Assembly: GCF_037996765.1 (NCBI RefSeq)
Contig: NZ_JBBNAD010000005.1
Location: 1,396,001 to 1,460,000 of the forward strand
Direction of reading: 5' to 3'
Length of the DNA stretch: 64,000 bases
Source of the DNA: Bdellovibrio sp. GT3
GTDB lineage: Bacteria > Bdellovibrionota > Bdellovibrionia > Bdellovibrionales > Bdellovibrionaceae
Shown here: one piece after another, positions 30,421 through 39,868 of the stretch
How positions within the stretch are numbered: the first letter of the stretch is position 1
How the letters are laid out: each line of letters starts with the position of its first letter
Position numbers and translations under genes: made by a program
The notes under the pieces: generated by a model
What the model was told of the DNA's origin: nothing
What the model saw: only the letters and a program-made list of their open reading frames with translations
The model's database searches: none

Positions 30421-31167
30421 TTGAAGGCCGCCTTAATCAAACTTAGAACATTCATCGTTAAAGCATGTTTGCTTTTCCTAGTGACAAGCCTTGGGGCCGT
30501 TCTTTTCTATCGTTTTATCCCGGTTTACGTGACTCCGCTAATGGTGATCCGCTCGGCCCAGTCCATTTTCTCAGAAAAGTTTGTTGGCATTAAACACGAC
30601 TGGGTTCCGTTGGAAGAGATTTCCCCTTCAGTTCAGAAGGCCGTGTTGAAAGCCGAGGACTACCGGTTTTTTGAGCACAGTGGTTTTGACTTTGTCGCGA
30701 TCGAAAAGGCGATGAAATATAATAAAACTCACAAACGCATCAAAGGTGCCAGCACGATTTCCCAACAAACTGCCAAGAATGTTTTCTTGTGGCCGAACCG
30801 TGATTGGGTTCGCAAAGGTTTGGAAGCCTACTTCACAGTTTTGATCGAGTTCACTTGGCCCAAAGAACGCATCATGGAAGTTTATTTGAATGTGATCGAA
30901 ATGGGTCCTGGTGTGTATGGAGTGGAAGCGGCTTCGCAAAAGTACTTTAAAAAAAGCGCCAGGAATCTTTCTTCATCACAAGCCAGTTTGATTGCGGCGG
31001 TCCTTCCGAACCCGCGTCGTTTTCGTATCGATCGACCTTCCAACTATGTGGTTCGCCGTCAGCAAAAAATCCTGTATCGCGTAAGCCCGCCATTCCCACG
31101 TGAAGAGCGCGCTTCATTTTTGGATTTTTTGGATTTCAAATTCGACTCCGACGAATCCCAAGATTAA
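30421..31167 (+). CDS. mtgA: Monofunctional peptidoglycan glycosyltransferase
   Basis: A 248-residue GT51 enzyme anchored by one N-terminal helix. It polymerises lipid II into glycan strands. The motifs are intact: KAEDYRFFEHSGFD (catalytic Glu79), GASTISQQTAKN, KERIMEVYLNVIEMG and the closing ASLIAAVLPNPRRF. There is no transpeptidase domain, as expected for MtgA. The frame opens with TTG and no strong ribosome-binding site, so the start is the least certain point. It lies 300 bases upstream of the exported-protein cassette on the same strand. Confidence 0.92.
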   Translation: MKAALIKLRTFIVKACLLFLVTSLGAVLFYRFIPVYVTPLMVIRSAQSIFSEKFVGIKHDWVPLEEISPSVQKAVLKAEDYRFFEHSGFDFVAIEKAMKYNKTHKRIKGASTISQQTAKNVFLWPNRDWVRKGLEAYFTVLIEFTWPKERIMEVYLNVIEMGPGVYGVEAASQKYFKKSARNLSSSQASLIAAVLPNPRRFRIDRPSNYVVRRQQKILYRVSPPFPREERASFLDFLDFKFDSDESQD

Positions 31168-31466
31168 CAATTACGTAATTCACTCGTCGCGTAAATTCAT
31201 TTCCATTTCTTAATTTCTAAGAAGAACTATTCAAATTCTTATTTATATTATCATTTTTTCTCGAATGAAAAATGCCTTTTAGTGCGTTCTCGTGTTCTGT
31301 TTCGGGGAACATCCGGAACATTCCAGCAGTATTCATTACAAAGAAATTCATATTCTCTTAATTTTCCTAGGGATACGAATTGACTCCAACACAAACACGC
31401 ATCTTCGAAGTCGGCTCGCACGTAGATTGAATGACTGCAAGATGCTCAAGTAACGGAGAAATGTAT
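31168..31466 (+). promoter_or_regulatory. AT-rich leader of the exported-protein cassette with GGAACA repeats
   Basis: About 300 bases without a gene, AT-rich in the first half. A cluster of related hexamers stands out: TGTTCT (31293-31298, reverse of AGAACA), GGAACATCC (31306-31314) and GGAACATTCC (31315-31324). The last two are adjacent direct repeats, and the first is inverted relative to them. This looks like a regulator-binding array. I could not assign -35/-10 boxes with confidence. Confidence 0.4.
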
Positions 31467-32006
31467 ATGGACGTAAAACGCGTACTAATCGTACTGGCGG
31501 CTCTATTTGTCGGTATGTCATCCCAAGCAAATGAATTCGATGAAGGATCGGGTGAATTCGATTCTCCTGCAAGACCTGGTTATAGCGAAGCCGACATTCA
31601 AAAAAAGATTGAGAATGAAATGGCGATCGCGTGCTCAGGAAATCTTTGTAAGGTTGTCGGGCAGGATAATCAGGGTTCTGGTTGGACTGTGCAGTTTCAA
31701 GTAGGGTATGGGGATTCCAACAATGGTAACGGCGGTGACAACATTTACATCGGCGGCAATGGCAACGAAAGCAATAGCGACGGCTATGCCAGCGTTACCG
31801 TCACTTACCGAAATTTCAAATGTCGCTCCAATCTTCTGGTTACACCAGCTGTGTACAGATTCGTGAATACTTACCTTTACAACATGGTGAACTCTGATGG
31901 TTCCGTTAAACGTAACTTCTCGCCAGCAGATCAAACGGTGGTTTTGTTCTACACCACTATGCTTAACAAGGTCAGCGCTTGTGGCATGGGTGGCGTGGTT
32001 AATTAG
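31467..32006 (+). CDS. Exported Gly/Asn-rich protein, cassette gene 1
   Basis: I start at 31467, eight bases after GGAG; ATGs at 31461 and 31431 are less well placed. The 179-residue product has a signal peptide (MDVKRVLIVLAALFVGMSSQA). The mature protein starts acidic, has an ACSGNLC pair, then an alternating beta-prone stretch broken by a Gly/Asn-rich segment (YIGGNGNESNSDGYASVTV), and two further cysteines. The C-terminal half is helical. No family recognised. First of six consecutive exported proteins; it ends eight bases before the next start. Confidence 0.8.
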   Translation: MDVKRVLIVLAALFVGMSSQANEFDEGSGEFDSPARPGYSEADIQKKIENEMAIACSGNLCKVVGQDNQGSGWTVQFQVGYGDSNNGNGGDNIYIGGNGNESNSDGYASVTVTYRNFKCRSNLLVTPAVYRFVNTYLYNMVNSDGSVKRNFSPADQTVVLFYTTMLNKVSACGMGGVVN

Positions 32007-32014
32007 GAGTAGTT

Positions 32015-34762
32015 ATGCGTATCCAGGAGTCTTGCACGTACTTGCTTATGTCGACGATACTTCTTTGCTCCTTGAGCACCCGCGCTCAAGTGCCCGCAGG
32101 TTCGTCGGACATCCAGTTAAACAATCTGAGAGTCACAAACAGAGCTCAGTGTGCGCTGGACTCCGAAATCCCGACAGATTCCGTGTTTTTGGTGGTTGAT
32201 GGCTATAACGCCGGAAAGCTTTCATATTCACTTGCGAAAAATATTGGGGCAGATACCACAGTAATGAGTACTGCAGGCATGCAGGATTTCAGAATTGCTG
32301 TCGCAACATTGACCAAAACGATTATCAATCGAATTATGGATGGCAGCCTGCCGCTGCTTCCATTAAATCTTAAGACTTCCAAACTTCAGGTTTATAATAC
32401 ACTGGCAGTTAAGTGTGATAAGAAATCTTATTGTCCTGAATTGAATTCGTATCTTTCACGTATCTGGGAAAACTCTCAAGGGGCTGGTGTCTCCTGGAGT
32501 AAAATCGATAACTTCACGGGCGCAAATTTTGTTAAGTCCAAGTCGCGGGATCGCGTCGCCTGTTCCTACCTGAAAAAGTTTTCGGGTCTACAGGGACATC
32601 TTCATACTTCGTTGTTGGATGCCGCCTCTTTGCAGGACATGGCTCAGTCCTACATCAACTCACAAAAGAACATCACTTCCTGTGAGGATCGTGATTCCAG
32701 TTTGGATTCACGCAATGCAATTATTCAACTGGATCTGAAAACAGACGGAGCCGGGGAATTTGCACAATATGGTTTTGATTTTTGGAATAGCGTAAAAGTG
32801 TATCTGTCCTTTGCCTGGAGATATTCGCTTATTCCGTCGCAAGTCAGCCCGCAAATGGGCGAGATATTTAAATCCATTGCTTTGGAAGAGTCTGTGATGA
32901 TGGTTCCAAATGGATGTAAAAGTGTTGAGAAACCCTCCTGCGATGCGGAGACATTGTCTTTAAATAGTATTCGCGAGCTGGCCAAATCTGGTAACAATCC
33001 AATTGATTCATTTAAAGAAAACCCTGAAGGTCCGGAAAAGGGCGCGGTCAATAACGGTGCTCGTTCGGTGAACGAGGATTTCCTGGGCACACGCAGCTAT
33101 CAGGAAGCCGCTGACTGGGTTGAAAACTTTCGAAAAAACTTCGTTCAAAATCGTGGTTCCATGAAAAATCGTCTGCAAAGCTCCATTCAGTTTTTGAATG
33201 TGATGTCAGGGGCGATGACGGCACCGGAGCTGGCGGAATTTGTTAAGCCTTTGGCTTTCGTCGGCAACTACAGCAAAACCCATCGTGATGAGCTTTATTA
33301 TCTATGTACTGAGACTCGTCTGGCGGCTGACCAACGCTTGGACTTTATGAAGTCCGGCATCGACAAAGTTAAAAATCTTTCCGTCATGAAAAAAGCATTC
33401 GAAGTCTCGCCAAAGTCGCTGGATCAAATGTCTGAATATTTTGACAGTGCTGGCCGCCAGATTGTGGGATTTTGTGATTCTTTGGAAACTCAAAACATCT
33501 GGAATGTCGCTGGCTATCAGGTGAACAAAGATGGTTTCAAACCCTGGGTTAAAGAGCTTTTAAATATTCCTCAGACGGAAGTGCCAGCAGTCGTTGATAC
33601 CGCACCATCGTTGTATGGACAAGCGGCTCTATTGCTGTGGGATAAAAGCAAGCCGGCGGAAGGTGGCAATATCATTTGTGCTTCCGGTATCGACTGCGCC
33701 CGCAAGATGACGAAAGCGATGGTGGATCTGTATGCCATTTCCAAGTATGCCGATGCCTTTCTTCCGGTATCCTCCACAGTGTCATCGCCGGATGTTTTCA
33801 ATCCATATGCGGAGTTAAAGGCATGCAAAATCTATGATCCTTGGTACCAAACCCGCAGAGCGAACAAACGCCTCTTTGCGGATCTTACCAGCACGGCGCT
33901 ATTTGGTTGGAATGCATTGCCTCTTTATGTTGACGTGGACTTTTCGGCTCCTAAGGTCACCAGTCTAAAGCAGATGATAGACAATGGGACCGTCAAGTTT
34001 GATCCGGTTCTGCAAAAATCAAAAATGCAGTACTCAATCCTGGCAGATTTCGGTCCCTTGGTGGGCGCACCTTGTGCAGTTTCCATTGCGCCGAACAGTG
34101 CCAAGGCCTTCAACTTTTATGCTTTCAATGGCATCACTATGAACTACTGTGATTCCCGTTCCAATGGAACCTCGATCGGCGAGGTGAGTGGAAATGTAAA
34201 TAACAATCAGCCCAAGTCGCGGGCCTACTGCGGTGGTTGTTCAATCAACTTTGTGGGTGTGACTTCAAGTGCGGCGATGACCTCTGGTGGGTGGCTGCCG
34301 GTAAATCCAATCAAGCTGGGAATTTACTTTTTCAGATCCATCCATCGTTTCGTTCAGGCAAAAAAGGATAAAGTTAATATCCCGCTAGCTCAGGAAGTTA
34401 ACCTGAAAAAAGCTGCTGAAACATATCAGAAATACGGATTCATTCCAGAACATTGCGTAGAGCAGTTAGGTGCGGGCGTTGGTTGCTATCACAGTATCTG
34501 TGCTGCCAAAGCCGCTGACTTTTTTGAAAAAACCACGGGCCGGAAGGTTGAAGAGTTGGTGCCGGATACATCGGCACCTACCACCTCCTCAATCACCAAG
34601 GCAGTCATTATCAAATCATCTCTATGTTCAGGTGAGGTTCGCTTGAAGTTCAACTGCAGTGATGATGGCAAAAAGTTTTCTACCTACGATCGATTCGGCG
34701 GAATGTACGGTCGTACGAAGGAATGCCGCGATGCTATCGGGCAGAATTTCTGGGGGCGCTAA
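32015..34762 (+). CDS. Very large exported Cys-rich protein, cassette gene 2
   Basis: A 915-residue protein, well placed behind AGGAG. The N-terminus (MRIQESCTYLLMSTILLCSLSTRA) is a signal peptide. The rest contains more than 25 cysteines, spread along the chain (SYCPEL, ASGIDCARKM, RAYCGGCSIN, VGCYHSICAAK), which implies a disulfide-stabilised periplasmic or extracellular protein. The middle (about 270-550) is largely helical; the C-terminal third is mixed. There is no membrane helix beyond the signal and no barrel-like C-terminus. I recognise no domain. Its stop shares a base with the start of the next gene, so the two are coupled. Confidence 0.82.
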   Translation: MRIQESCTYLLMSTILLCSLSTRAQVPAGSSDIQLNNLRVTNRAQCALDSEIPTDSVFLVVDGYNAGKLSYSLAKNIGADTTVMSTAGMQDFRIAVATLTKTIINRIMDGSLPLLPLNLKTSKLQVYNTLAVKCDKKSYCPELNSYLSRIWENSQGAGVSWSKIDNFTGANFVKSKSRDRVACSYLKKFSGLQGHLHTSLLDAASLQDMAQSYINSQKNITSCEDRDSSLDSRNAIIQLDLKTDGAGEFAQYGFDFWNSVKVYLSFAWRYSLIPSQVSPQMGEIFKSIALEESVMMVPNGCKSVEKPSCDAETLSLNSIRELAKSGNNPIDSFKENPEGPEKGAVNNGARSVNEDFLGTRSYQEAADWVENFRKNFVQNRGSMKNRLQSSIQFLNVMSGAMTAPELAEFVKPLAFVGNYSKTHRDELYYLCTETRLAADQRLDFMKSGIDKVKNLSVMKKAFEVSPKSLDQMSEYFDSAGRQIVGFCDSLETQNIWNVAGYQVNKDGFKPWVKELLNIPQTEVPAVVDTAPSLYGQAALLLWDKSKPAEGGNIICASGIDCARKMTKAMVDLYAISKYADAFLPVSSTVSSPDVFNPYAELKACKIYDPWYQTRRANKRLFADLTSTALFGWNALPLYVDVDFSAPKVTSLKQMIDNGTVKFDPVLQKSKMQYSILADFGPLVGAPCAVSIAPNSAKAFNFYAFNGITMNYCDSRSNGTSIGEVSGNVNNNQPKSRAYCGGCSINFVGVTSSAAMTSGGWLPVNPIKLGIYFFRSIHRFVQAKKDKVNIPLAQEVNLKKAAETYQKYGFIPEHCVEQLGAGVGCYHSICAAKAADFFEKTTGRKVEELVPDTSAPTTSSITKAVIIKSSLCSGEVRLKFNCSDDGKKFSTYDRFGGMYGRTKECRDAIGQNFWGR

Positions 34763-35358
34763 TGAAAGTCTTCTTATTCGCGGCATTCTTTCTTTTTCAA
34801 ATATCCTCGGCATCAGCTTTCGTCGTTGAAAGTGGATACGTGCAAAAGTTAAGTGGGCAATATGCCAAAGCAACCAAAATCAGTTGTGATGACAGCAGTA
34901 CAGATTATTGCCGGCAGATTTGCGGCGATTTGAAGCAATGTCAAAGACTGGAGCCGTTTTGCAGAAACTGCGCCGGGACAACGTCGCCACTTTTGCGTCA
35001 ACTATTCACAGAGCTGTCCAGAGTGTTTTCGATCCAGACTAAACTTTCAGATATTCGACCCTTGGTGAATTTCCTGTCGGGGGGGCGCTATGTCCTGTTG
35101 GATCTGAACAGCGTATTTAACTACTACACACCTGTGGGCGGAGAAGCATTTCAAGCGGAGCTGGCTCAGTTCTGTGGTGCCAGTGCAAATCAGGCACTAC
35201 TGGCTGTTTCACTGGATGAGGTGAATCAACCCCAGAAGCTTAATTACGTTCTTTGCCGGGATGAATCCGGAAGAACAGCAGCATTTGATGTGGCACCAAG
35301 AATTCCTGAATTAGGAATGCCACTTTTGAAAACTCAAATTTATTTCAATTTAAACTGA
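34762..35358 (+). CDS. Exported Cys-rich protein, cassette gene 3
   Basis: A 198-residue protein with a signal peptide (MKVFLFAAFFLFQISSASA). The mature N-terminus is a compact cysteine knot-like stretch with seven cysteines in about 40 residues (ISCDD, YCRQICGDLKQC, PFCRNC). The remainder alternates helix and strand, with two more cysteines. It overlaps the 915-residue gene by one base (TAATG), which suggests that the two products act together, perhaps as subunit and accessory protein. No family recognised. Confidence 0.82.
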   Translation: MKVFLFAAFFLFQISSASAFVVESGYVQKLSGQYAKATKISCDDSSTDYCRQICGDLKQCQRLEPFCRNCAGTTSPLLRQLFTELSRVFSIQTKLSDIRPLVNFLSGGRYVLLDLNSVFNYYTPVGGEAFQAELAQFCGASANQALLAVSLDEVNQPQKLNYVLCRDESGRTAAFDVAPRIPELGMPLLKTQIYFNLN

Positions 35359-35404
35359 AAATATCAGTTTAATTAAACAGCCCTTGAATGGGAAGGAGAA
35401 CAAC

Positions 35405-36538
35405 ATGAAACGTTTTGTGAAAGGTTTGGCTGCAACGGCTATAACCTTCATGGCGATCCAAGCGAACGCCGTACAGGTAACTTACACATTCCGAGTGAAC
35501 AGCTCGGGACCAAGCATCTATCCGTGTAATGCGGGTCTATTGACAGAAAACCCTTATAAAGGTGACAAAGCAATTTGCTACACTTCAGACACTCATGAAG
35601 CGTGTGATCCTGATTGCGTTGGCGTGGATTGTAAAGGTAATGGCAATGGTAAAGACGGTCCAAACTTGCCAGATCCAAAACCGTACTTTGCAAACCTATT
35701 TAATGGCGGTGGACACCATGGGCCTCCGGGCGGACATAACCCTCCTGGTCATCAAGGTCCTCCAAGAAAGAACGTCTGCGAATGTACAACTGAAGCGGGT
35801 CGTGAAAACGGAAACTACATCCACGCGACTTACGTTCCATGGGGTCAAGGCGCAGATCCACACAAAGACGTGATTTCTGGTCAAAGCCCGTACTTTGCAC
35901 ACGTATTCCCGGGTGAAGTGGATGCATACAAAAATGTATTGCAAACATTGTCTTTCAACTTGGGTTCCGAGCTGTATACAGCGAAATACTTCGTTGATAT
36001 CTGCTACCGTGGTTCACAAATTGATTACGGCACTATCAACACTGGTTGGAACATCCTTGCAGAAACTGCTGTGACAGATTTCGGTTATGCACCATCAGGC
36101 GAAGGTTACAGCAAACTTGCTGACCTTGAGATGAAAGCTTACGTGATCTGCACAACGCAAAATAAAACTTGCGAACACGGCAACTGTAATGACTACGACA
36201 CACAAATCAACTCGTCTGAAGTGGCTCAATACAACACTTCATTCTTGCAGTACTTGAACCAAGGTAAATTCAATTACTATGACAAGTCTGACTGGGAAGA
36301 TGCAAAAGGCAGCTTTACTCAATTGATCGACAACAAGAATGTCGACTTGGGTAACCACGCAGCCGCTAAATTCTGCAAAATCCGTTACGTTTACTCTGAG
36401 ACAAATGGCTTGGATAAAAACAAAGCGAAACACAGAAAATGGCAAAAACATGGCGCTAACATCTGCACGCACACGAAAGTCGAAATGGCTTCCATGGGCA
36501 ACTGCACAAACTGCGATCATGGTCACAAAAATCACTAG
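35405..36538 (+). CDS. Exported protein with Gly/His/Pro linker, cassette gene 4
   Basis: A 377-residue protein with AAGGAG six bases upstream and a signal peptide cut after about residue 22 (MAIQANA). Domain order: a beta-rich start with CNAGLL (41-46), several cysteines, a collagen-like Gly/His/Pro segment (101-120), CEC (125-127), then LGSELYTAKYFVDICYRGSQ (186-205), and a Cys/His-rich C-terminus (NCTNCDHGHKNH). The CNA, C-x-C and LGSE...CY-x-GSQ series recurs in cassette gene 6. Codon use looks more uniform (AAA, AAC, GGT, CCA) than in its neighbours, suggesting high expression and a structural role. Confidence 0.83.
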   Translation: MKRFVKGLAATAITFMAIQANAVQVTYTFRVNSSGPSIYPCNAGLLTENPYKGDKAICYTSDTHEACDPDCVGVDCKGNGNGKDGPNLPDPKPYFANLFNGGGHHGPPGGHNPPGHQGPPRKNVCECTTEAGRENGNYIHATYVPWGQGADPHKDVISGQSPYFAHVFPGEVDAYKNVLQTLSFNLGSELYTAKYFVDICYRGSQIDYGTINTGWNILAETAVTDFGYAPSGEGYSKLADLEMKAYVICTTQNKTCEHGNCNDYDTQINSSEVAQYNTSFLQYLNQGKFNYYDKSDWEDAKGSFTQLIDNKNVDLGNHAAAKFCKIRYVYSETNGLDKNKAKHRKWQKHGANICTHTKVEMASMGNCTNCDHGHKNH

Positions 36539-36568
36539 TTAATTTGATTCTCAGAAGGAGAGCGCACT

Positions 36569-38161
36569 ATGTCCCTTGTTAAACTCAAAGCACATTCTGA
36601 AGGCGGCGGCGGCCGCTGGTCTCTTCTTCTGGGGGTTTTATTAGCCCTTTGCAGTCAGCATGTAAATGCTGGCTGTGTGGTGGATAATGACGACCGTATT
36701 GAGATCAATATCTCCCCCGAGAGTCGCTCTTGGGGGGATTTTAAAGGACAACAGCTGATCCCTGCGTCGCGAGTCTACAAGTGTCAGGAGGATGCAGGAC
36801 GATATCTGATGATTACATTGGGCGCGACCCAATGGACTCATTCCACAGAAGTTAAAGACACGTATATCTTTGACAACTATGAACCGGAACAATGTTCCAT
36901 TCAGAATTCCAAATCATTCAGCTCGTATTCGGCACAAAGAACCAAGGCGAACTTCAGCCGTCAGTTCAAATTTATCCGAAACTGTTTCGATATGCGCGTG
37001 ATCGATATCGCCGGAGCCCCCATCGTCGCCAAAGAAGATCAGGAATACTGCCAGATCGAAAGACGACCGGATGGAGCTCTTATTCTGCGCGGTGATATGT
37101 GCTTCCTAAAAATCCGAGGGCAAAATCAATTTGCTATTCAACCTATTTTAAGAAACGAATGCCTGGAGTCGGACTATCTTGAATCGATGGGCATTCAGGC
37201 CCAGGACATCTATGGCAACATGAATATTTTGACGACGGGGGACGACACTGGCTATAGCACCGACGTCGAAAATATCGGAAGCCGTTCAGTGCATGTGAAT
37301 ATAACCCCTAACGCGAAACTTTTGAATTTGTCAGAGGATTTCGGCACTGGAGTTCCGCGTTTTACCACTCACTACAATATCAACGCGGATTGGGGCGATT
37401 TGAAAATTAAAACTGACTTTGAAAACAAAACTGAAATCGACCTGTCATTTTTCGTGTCAAATCTTGCGCAGGAAAAATGCGAGGGTAACGCTTGCACCAG
37501 TTCATCGAATTTCACGCAGCCATTTGTAGGCCAGGTGGAATTGTATAAAATTAGTGGTGTGAAAACACCGAAATTGGTTGAAGAGTGGTGGGATGGCGGT
37601 TTGGTGCCACCGAACTGGCAGGGTTTCGTAAAAGGAATTCGCTACCGAGTGGACGATGCGGTTGTCGCAGCAGATGGCCGGTACCGCCTGGTTGCCACCT
37701 TTCAGGATCCGACGGATGATTATGCGATATTCCTGAGTGGTCTTCGCCAAATGGTGTTGCGCATGTATGATGTGACGGGCTCCACGGTGGGGATCGATAA
37801 TCTTCCGGCCATTTCGACTTTACAAACATTGGGTGCAATTCCTGAATTCACAGGGTTGGTGCCTCTGAATCAAAACAATCAAGCAGTGGATTTGGCCGAG
37901 ACCCTAAAAGGACTTGAAGCGATTATCAGCTCCACAGTGTGGCCGCCATATTACGATTCTGTTTGTGATGGGGCAAAGTGCGTGAAGCTGGGAAAAAGAA
38001 AGTTTCATCAGCGCCTGGTCATGGAGTTTACGGTCCGTCGCCCGCGTTACGAGGGTGAAGACGTCGGTATCGAGGACGTGCGCATGCAAAAAATATCGCC
38101 GATCTTTAATAGTTATCCGATGCAAAAAGCTGAATTCGCAAAACTTCGCTGTGGAGAATAG
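36569..38161 (+). CDS. Exported protein of 530 residues, cassette gene 5
   Basis: Well placed behind AAGGAG. The N-terminus has an unusually long polar leader with a GGGG run before the hydrophobic core (WSLLLGVLLALCSQHVNAG), still a plausible signal peptide. The mature protein is rich in beta strands (RIEINISPES, GRYLMITLGA, SVHVNITPNAK, DLKIKTDFENKTEIDLSFFV) with about twelve cysteines, mostly in the first half. The C-terminal half (PKLVEEWWDGG, LVATFQDPTDDYAIFL) could be a second sandwich domain. No family recognised. It ends three bases before cassette gene 6. Confidence 0.8.
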   Translation: MSLVKLKAHSEGGGGRWSLLLGVLLALCSQHVNAGCVVDNDDRIEINISPESRSWGDFKGQQLIPASRVYKCQEDAGRYLMITLGATQWTHSTEVKDTYIFDNYEPEQCSIQNSKSFSSYSAQRTKANFSRQFKFIRNCFDMRVIDIAGAPIVAKEDQEYCQIERRPDGALILRGDMCFLKIRGQNQFAIQPILRNECLESDYLESMGIQAQDIYGNMNILTTGDDTGYSTDVENIGSRSVHVNITPNAKLLNLSEDFGTGVPRFTTHYNINADWGDLKIKTDFENKTEIDLSFFVSNLAQEKCEGNACTSSSNFTQPFVGQVELYKISGVKTPKLVEEWWDGGLVPPNWQGFVKGIRYRVDDAVVAADGRYRLVATFQDPTDDYAIFLSGLRQMVLRMYDVTGSTVGIDNLPAISTLQTLGAIPEFTGLVPLNQNNQAVDLAETLKGLEAIISSTVWPPYYDSVCDGAKCVKLGKRKFHQRLVMEFTVRRPRYEGEDVGIEDVRMQKISPIFNSYPMQKAEFAKLRCGE

Positions 38162-38164
38162 GCA

Positions 38165-39040
38165 ATGAAGAATCTGGTTGGCGTATTGATTCTATTGTTC
38201 TCGTTCGCGACTCGTGCCGAGGTTAATATCCAGACGGCCGTGGATAACACGACAGGGGAGGAGCTTTTCCTTTGCAACGCAAGTCTGCGCCATTCGATTT
38301 TGCAGAATGAGCAGGAGTGTTTAAATCTGGAAAATGGCGAATACTGCAGTCCCCAGACGGCCGACCCCAAAAAAGGACCATGTGTTTGTCGCTCCAAAAC
38401 CAACTATGGAGATCAAATACTGGCCTGGGACAATCAGGGTGACTACAAAAGCATCATCGGTGCAAATGACTGGAACAATCTGGTCGAATCGTCGTTGATG
38501 TTTAAAAATAAGGTCAATCGCCTGGAAATACTTCTGGGAAGCGAAAACCTGGGGGCCGAGTATGCGGTTCGCTTTTGCTATCTGGGGTCCCAAGAGGTTC
38601 TGCAAAAGCAGGGAACGGTGACGACTGACATTTCACAAGGGAAGTATCTGGTGGACGTGTCGTTGGCGGGTGGTAACTACAGTCAGGCATTGGATAAGGT
38701 CTCATTTGCCTACCAATGCGACTATCGCCAGCGGGGTGGGCAATCAGCACCTCGGCGTAAGAACGAGCTGCCGTCGGGCGGAGTTTTCGAGAAGGATGAC
38801 AGCGCGGAATCCACTATCTTCGGAAATGGTTCAGGTGCTCGGCCTGGTGCAATTAATTTTTTACAGAAAGCCATCTCCCTGAACTCCATTACAGCACAGG
38901 TGCCGCGCTTCTGTGTGTTTGAGTTCAAATTCAAAGAGTTGTCAGGCAAAAGCCTGGGCAGAAATATCAATGCCAGTCAGGTGAATTTCACCGGGAAACT
39001 TAGAATCTGTAAGCAGGGTACGTGCCCTTCTGGATTTTAG
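38165..39040 (+). CDS. Exported protein related to cassette gene 4, cassette gene 6
   Basis: A 291-residue protein with a signal peptide (MKNLVGVLILLFSFATRA). It repeats the layout of the 35405-36538 product: LCNASL (36-41), a Cys-rich stretch, CVC (73-75), and LGSENLGAEYAVRFCYLGSQ (124-143). A Gly/Ser-rich linker (about 205-230) leads to a short C-terminal beta domain with two cysteines. It lacks the Gly/His/Pro segment. Last gene of the cassette; a terminator follows within 15 bases. Confidence 0.82.
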   Translation: MKNLVGVLILLFSFATRAEVNIQTAVDNTTGEELFLCNASLRHSILQNEQECLNLENGEYCSPQTADPKKGPCVCRSKTNYGDQILAWDNQGDYKSIIGANDWNNLVESSLMFKNKVNRLEILLGSENLGAEYAVRFCYLGSQEVLQKQGTVTTDISQGKYLVDVSLAGGNYSQALDKVSFAYQCDYRQRGGQSAPRRKNELPSGGVFEKDDSAESTIFGNGSGARPGAINFLQKAISLNSITAQVPRFCVFEFKFKELSGKSLGRNINASQVNFTGKLRICKQGTCPSGF

Positions 39041-39051
39041 AGACGGCAGAA

Positions 39052-39083
39052 TAAAAAAATCCCGCTTCATCAGCGGGATTTTT
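39052..39083. terminator. Bidirectional Rho-independent terminator
   Basis: AAAAAAATCCCGCT and AGCGGGATTTTTT around a five-base loop; it closes the exported-protein cassette and the convergent dioxygenase-like gene. Confidence 0.92.
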
Positions 39084-39103
39084 TCAGATTCTAAATTTAA
39101 AAG

Positions 39104-39868
39104 CTATTTGCCCTGAGCTTTAGCGGCCATGTCGATCATGATTTTATCGCAGGCTTCCAAGTCAGCTTCAGTGATTTCGTAGACTTCTTTGTCACCAAGA
39201 TATTTCCAAAGCGCTTCCATAGTTTCTTTCGGAAGGAAGGAAAGTACGTTGCCAGATTGGTACTCGCGCTCTTTTTCGTCGTAAAGACCCAAGAACGTTT
39301 CGTCACGGAACCAGCTTTGTTTGTTGGCTTTTTGAATTGTTGCCAATTCATCGTCTGATGGATCACGTTGCAGGAATTCAAAGAAGAAACCAGATGGCTT
39401 GGCGCCTGGTAAGTACCACTCACCAGAGAACACTTGGATCAGGTTTTCATGATCGTCTTTTAGGATTGGTGTTACGAACTGAACACCGCGTTCAACCATG
39501 TGTTTATGGAAAGCGATCAAATCCGGAGTGCGCAATGCCACGTGCTGAAGATGAGCCGTGTTTTCGTGGCCATCCAACATTTGACGAACGTGAGAAGGTT
39601 GATCTTTAGGCTCAGAAGGTTGAACCAATGCAAAGATCGTGTTTAGAGGATCGCCAGCTTTTGGTTCCCAAGTTCCCACGCGAGTCGCGTAAGTCATGGA
39701 AACGTCTTTTGCGCCGTTTTGGCCTTTACGTTTTTTTTCGTACAAAAGGTCGTCAGGAGTTGTTCCGAAAATGTTACGGAAAACTACGTAGGAAAGTTTG
39801 TAGAGTTTTGGGTGGAACAACATTGTCATGTGATCCACAGCAAAATTCATAAATGGTTTTTTAGTCAT
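39104..39868 (-). CDS. 4-hydroxyphenylpyruvate dioxygenase-like (VOC) protein
   Basis: A 254-residue vicinal-oxygen-chelate protein. The three iron ligands expected for HPPD-type enzymes are visible: His in AVDHMTM (near 13), His in HLQHVALRT (near 110) and Glu in GFFFEFLQRD (near 165). The text LQHVALRTPDLIAFHKHMVERGVQF matches the HPPD C-terminal domain. It is clearly shorter than normal HPPD (about 360), lacking most of the N-terminal half-domain. It may be a specialised homologue on another alpha-keto acid. The C-terminus is helical. Monocistronic. Confidence 0.77.
   Translation of the reverse strand: MTKKPFMNFAVDHMTMLFHPKLYKLSYVVFRNIFGTTPDDLLYEKKRKGQNGAKDVSMTYATRVGTWEPKAGDPLNTIFALVQPSEPKDQPSHVRQMLDGHENTAHLQHVALRTPDLIAFHKHMVERGVQFVTPILKDDHENLIQVFSGEWYLPGAKPSGFFFEFLQRDPSDDELATIQKANKQSWFRDETFLGLYDEKEREYQSGNVLSFLPKETMEALWKYLGDKEVYEITEADLEACDKIMIDMAAKAQGK

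Follow-up and report, generated by a model that had tools for sequence, protein, structure and literature searches.

Six consecutive plus-strand genes occupy positions 31467-39040 of the window, that is, of the whole 64,000-nucleotide stretch of Bdellovibrio sp. GT3 that was analysed (contig NZ_JBBNAD010000005.1, positions 1,396,001 to 1,460,000). These genes and the other features of interest are listed in Table 1. Every open reading frame described in the first-pass annotation, which had been made from the sequence alone, was recovered at its coordinates, with the sizes and couplings given there. From gene 1 to gene 6 the intergenic gaps are 8, -1, 46, 30 and 3 bases, the negative value being a TAATG overlap at 34762. 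The terminator proposed to close the cassette is real and lies just beyond its end, where the convergent gene downstream probably shares it. Upstream of gene 1, sequence blocks conserved in four orthologous loci mark a probable promoter or regulatory region common to these loci. An Rfam search over the window gave no match.

Table 1. Coordinates of the cassette, its surroundings and related features in other loci and genomes (numbers without a prefix refer to the window).
Feature	Position	Strand	Description
Flanking gene	30421..31167	+	Outside the cassette; transglycosylase-domain protein (mtgA-like)
Upstream region	31195..31395	+	Blocks CGAATGAAAA and TACGAATT.A.TCCAACACA, conserved in four orthologous loci; probable promoter/regulatory region
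Gene 1	31467..32006	+	179 aa; signal peptide MDVKRVLIVLAALFVGMSSQA, then NEF
Gene 2	32015..34762	+	915 aa; 22 Cys, 18 near-invariant; signature member
Gene 3	34762..35358	+	198 aa; 8 near-invariant Cys; start codon overlaps the gene 2 stop (TAATG)
Gene 4	35405..36538	+	377 aa; paralogue of gene 6; Gly/His/Pro-rich linker in the window copy
Gene 5	36569..38161	+	530 aa; 12 conserved Cys
Gene 6	38165..39040	+	291 aa; paralogue of gene 4
Intrinsic terminator	39054..39084	+	13-pair hairpin, including the T run; -17.1 kcal/mol; z = -4.9
Flanking gene	39104..39868	-	Outside the cassette; weakly glyoxalase/VOC-like protein
Collagen-repeat (NGN) gene	L041:12299-15454	-	Also in L039, L040 and L043
Orphan gene 2	L045:8150-10918	+	922 aa; 22 Cys
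Seventh-gene family, example	L050:3037-4233	-	Exported; papain/NlpC-P60-like Cys-His motif
Seventh-gene family, example	L046:15040-16248	+	Exported; papain/NlpC-P60-like Cys-His motif
GT3 seventh-gene homologue	G000:C5:1569780-1571015
GT3 seventh-gene homologue	G000:C4:498369-499799
GT3 seventh-gene homologue	G000:C4:290647-291378

Signal peptides had been proposed for all six products, and were plausible for each by a simple, home-made rule, which also fires on some membrane proteins; the orthologues keep signal-like N termini. The proposed richness in cysteine was borne out, as cysteine makes up 2.45-4.27% of the six products against a median of 0.8% in the other 44 open reading frames of at least 150 residues in the window. 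Cysteine positions are the best-kept feature of the cassette proteins, although identity drops to 20-30%. Gene 1, the mildest in cysteine content and the best-conserved product between relatives, has four cysteines (residues 56, 61, 119 and 172), all of which are kept across about 60 loci. Over the same number of loci, 18 cysteine columns of gene 2 are conserved at a level of at least 94% and 18-21 of its cysteines are near-invariant; gene 3 has eight of eight near-invariant, gene 5 has 12 conserved columns and the core of the gene 4 family has 11. Genes 1, 3 and 5 each have an even count, which suggests disulfides inside their products, and since the count in gene 4 is odd, one of its cysteines may be free to bond another chain. 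Export signals and conserved cysteines, the features expected of a disulfide-stabilised exported complex, are found in all members. The mature N terminus of the gene 4 family is also strikingly conserved (ISLRFKFK..SSGP). Two DsbA homologues are encoded in the GT3 genome.

None of the six products matched a profile from Pfam, NCBIfam, PHROGs, PADLOC or the PDB, in agreement with the earlier view that they belong to no known family, and they could not be assigned to separate, already described families either. Searches of Pfam and NCBIfam with the products and with the family alignments returned chance-level matches only (a DUF4846 match of an optional seventh gene excepted), and the best PHROGs match (E 0.028) was to a family of unknown function. 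The cassette genes were not found in plasmid, phage or viral-contig searches, which covered gene 5 in phage genomes and genes 1, 2 and 4/6 in viral contigs. A phage-derived structure was rejected on the empty PHROGs, phage-genome and viral-contig searches, and an anti-phage defence system on the unmatched PADLOC models. A chaperone-usher pilus was rejected because no usher (PF00577) or periplasmic chaperone (PF00345) was matched by any of the six at E <=1; the relatives of gene 2 gave no usher or chaperone match in Pfam. A type IV pilus or minor pilins, which would call for a prepilin (class III) signal and an N-terminal methylation domain, were rejected on the conventional, signal peptidase I-like N termini and the lack of a Pfam match, and an F-type conjugation reading found no Tra family match in Pfam.

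A BLASTP match (E 5e-5) and cross-matching profiles show genes 4 and 6 to be paralogues, and profile-profile comparison (six pairings) detected no mutual relation between families 1, 2, 3, 5 and 4/6. The cassette therefore comprises five unrelated families, not the six first supposed. By sequence comparison these five appear untied to any described family or system, and a good structure could still link them to a known kind. The cassette was not named in openly licensed main-text literature when this was searched by HD100 locus tags estimated from position.

AlphaFold2 models, built from alignments three to five rows deep (sequences of the window, L033 and L034), were poor, with a pLDDT of 54 for gene 6 and 38 for gene 1. 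The low-confidence model of gene 6 was rich in beta strands, and in Foldseek it matched many adhesin domains at TM-scores <=0.25, which are not usable.

The surroundings of gene 2 relatives, together with those of more distant gene 2 profile matches, yielded 65 loci across Bdellovibrionota. Far from being scattered in relatives, families 1, 2, 3, 5 and 4/6 stood side by side in 58 of these. Among the other seven, five end at contig ends (L055, L058, L061, L064 and L065) and one at the end of the fetched stretch (L087, whose sister L091 has gene 1 just past gene 5). The sole clear exception to the full set was L045, with an orphan gene 2 (Table 1); its host genome, G015, carries two other cassettes.

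Independent profile searches of the same 291 phylum genomes found gene 2 in 60 and gene 5 in 57; both were present in 55, only one in 7 and neither in 229 (Fisher p about 8e-51). The genomes with gene 2 only include G028, G205, G288 and G292, in which a diverged gene 5 adjoins (L063, L090, L089 and L106, respectively). The six genes are thus a genuine unit, far beyond chance. Loci of Bdellovibrionales run 1-2-3-4-5-6; those of family f18 (probably Bacteriovoracaceae), like some others, run 4-5-6-1-2-3 or 4-5-1-2-3. Blocks 1-2-3 and 4-5-6 are permuted as wholes between lineages. In several loci (L095, L097-L099 and L105) the blocks are divergently split. Beyond the phylum the search was a shallow one, a single GTDB-wide scan that detects close relatives only.

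The cassette genes are under strong constraint. Between the close relatives G011 and G022, dN/dS was 0.009-0.032 for the six genes, as compared with 0.031 for the flanking mtgA-like gene, which reflects purifying selection. Genes 1, 2 and 5 have correlated pairwise distances (rho 0.81-0.85), and gene 4 distances follow the others less closely (rho 0.37-0.53), perhaps owing to the variable linker of gene 4. The gene 2 tree showed well-separated subtypes within the genus. Its deep joins are unreliable, with long branches, and for this reason no claim of horizontal transfer between families is made. One subtype clade (L062, L085, L094 and L103) spans family codes f1, f17 and f18 and has longer gene 3 products.

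The cassette is accessory. A first search found relatives of gene 2 in 25 of 60 related genomes, some of which hold two or three copies; within the genus, 16 of the other 23 genomes were among the 25. In family f18, gene 2 is present in 38 of 129 genomes. Since the cassette is missing from seven of the 24 genus genomes (gene 2 not found), predation in general is unlikely to depend on it. In the window and in four relatives the cassette lies downstream of the mtgA-like gene, and the VOC-like gene then follows in three of the four relatives, where the contig allows this to be checked. An empty site was present in G019 and G005, in which the mtgA-like and VOC-like genes adjoin, 193 and 91 bases apart, respectively; each of these genomes carries the cassette elsewhere. 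In three loci (L035-L037) the cassette is joined at the same junction by extra genes for a TPR-like protein and helix-turn-helix regulators, which indicates that the junction (31167-31467 and 39040-39104 in the window) is a variable slot.

Two cassettes were found in B. bacteriovorus HD100, at about 2.836-2.843 Mb and about 0.710-0.717 Mb. The former follows a collagen-repeat gene; a large gene of this kind (NGN repeats) precedes gene 1 by about 200 bases, on the same strand, in HD100 and in three relatives. The latter is a few kb from bd0743, an RpoE-like sigma factor gene, and from a GGDEF gene, seen as its C-terminal part, which we infer to be dgcB (Bd0742). Three primers published for the bd0743 region of HD100 (PMC3464611) match locus L050 with no mismatch over the bases searched. 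Bd0739, near dgcB and outside the cassette, is needed for attachment (PMC6561027).

A seventh gene, encoding about 400 residues, stands beside the cassette in 22 loci, usually directly after gene 6 or gene 3. The family has an invariant D60-C61-A62-D63 and H163, and six of 19 members weakly matched Pfam DUF4846 (PF16138) at E <= 0.1 (best E 5e-4). DUF4846 belongs to the papain-like superfamily and is possibly an NlpC/p60-like wall-active domain (PMC10318531). As the window cassette lacks this gene and three unlinked homologues lie elsewhere in the GT3 genome, its link to the cassette may be loose.

Taken together, the operon-like layout, the export signals, the conserved cysteines, the co-inheritance and the purifying selection point, with moderate confidence, to a multi-protein complex outside the cytoplasm, stabilised by disulfides and, as judged with a shallow search beyond the phylum, characteristic of Bdellovibrionota. 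This agrees with the first-pass annotation in that the cassette appears to be one functional unit, exported and probably disulfide-stabilised. Judging by the spacing and the terminator, the genes would be read as a single transcript from a probable promoter upstream to the terminator. The products are predicted to be exported by Sec and cleaved by signal peptidase I, and would be oxidised in the periplasm by DsbA-type enzymes to give rigid folds, as the conserved cysteines and the two DsbA homologues suggest. The five families might then assemble as one complex in the periplasm or at the cell surface, in line with their co-inheritance and with the two conserved blocks. Gene 2 could provide a large scaffold, and genes 4 and 6 related, more variable subunits. 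The seventh gene, where it joins in many lineages, may hint at work at peptidoglycan. The most likely place for the complex would be the prey-facing envelope of the predator, with an accessory and exchangeable function.

A role in predation is a plausible hypothesis. The fuller reading, that this is a new Bdellovibrionota-specific envelope or surface apparatus of five cysteine-rich families, with a papain-like enzyme in some lineages, working where predator meets prey and occurring as exchangeable subtypes, is offered tentatively. The products might instead be separate secreted effectors or hydrolases, co-expressed and acting on or inside prey with no common complex. The export signals on all six, a phylum rich in predators and the papain-like, possibly wall-active protein added in many cassettes are consistent with this; however, no product matched a known enzyme family, and the co-occurrence and block conservation exceed what independent effectors would lead one to expect, so this alternative is considered unlikely.

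A periplasmic or outer-membrane complex for uptake, sensing or envelope maintenance, unrelated to predation, would fit a cassette that only part of the genomes in predatory lineages carry, and one HD100 copy does lie near the sigma factor gene bd0743. As no ligand-binding, transporter or TonB-type domain was found in the cassette or consistently beside it, we regard such a function as rather improbable. A filament or pilus-like adhesive structure on the surface, along the lines of the appendage proposed in the first-pass annotation and built with no known chaperone-usher system, is suggested by gene sizes that recall a pilin, usher, chaperone and adhesin set, by the conserved N terminus of the gene 4 family, as an assembly strand might be, and by the beta-rich, weak gene 6 model. 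This seems very unlikely, as no usher, periplasmic chaperone, type IV pilin or sortase family was matched, the adhesin-domain matches in Foldseek were of no use, and neither an ATPase nor an outer-membrane pore is consistently linked to the cassette.

The predator-specific machinery of Bdellovibrio is largely uncharacterised, and the cassette is a compact, strongly constrained, phylum-wide gene set. HD100, a type strain amenable to genetics, has two copies, and some relatives naturally lack the cassette; deletion can test its function directly.

The surface adhesins of Bdellovibrio include mosaic trimeric fibres and the MIDAS-family Bd0875 (PMC11003981). Like these adhesins, the cassette encodes exported predator proteins that may face prey, but it is a multi-family, cysteine-rich operon for which no adhesin domain was matched in Pfam. 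A likeness to DUF4846 and NlpC-P60-like proteins is confined to the seventh gene, which has the D-C-A-D ... GHA/RHV pattern and, in some members, a PGD-L element; it differs from them in a long extra C-terminal region and in the weakness of the Pfam matches. Chaperone-usher operons resemble the cassette in having disulfides and in combining, within one operon, a small exported subunit, proteins of about 900 and 200 residues and larger exported proteins, whereas neither the usher nor the PapD-like chaperone of such operons was matched here in Pfam. The 22 cysteines of the 915-residue gene 2 product are unlike an usher beta barrel.
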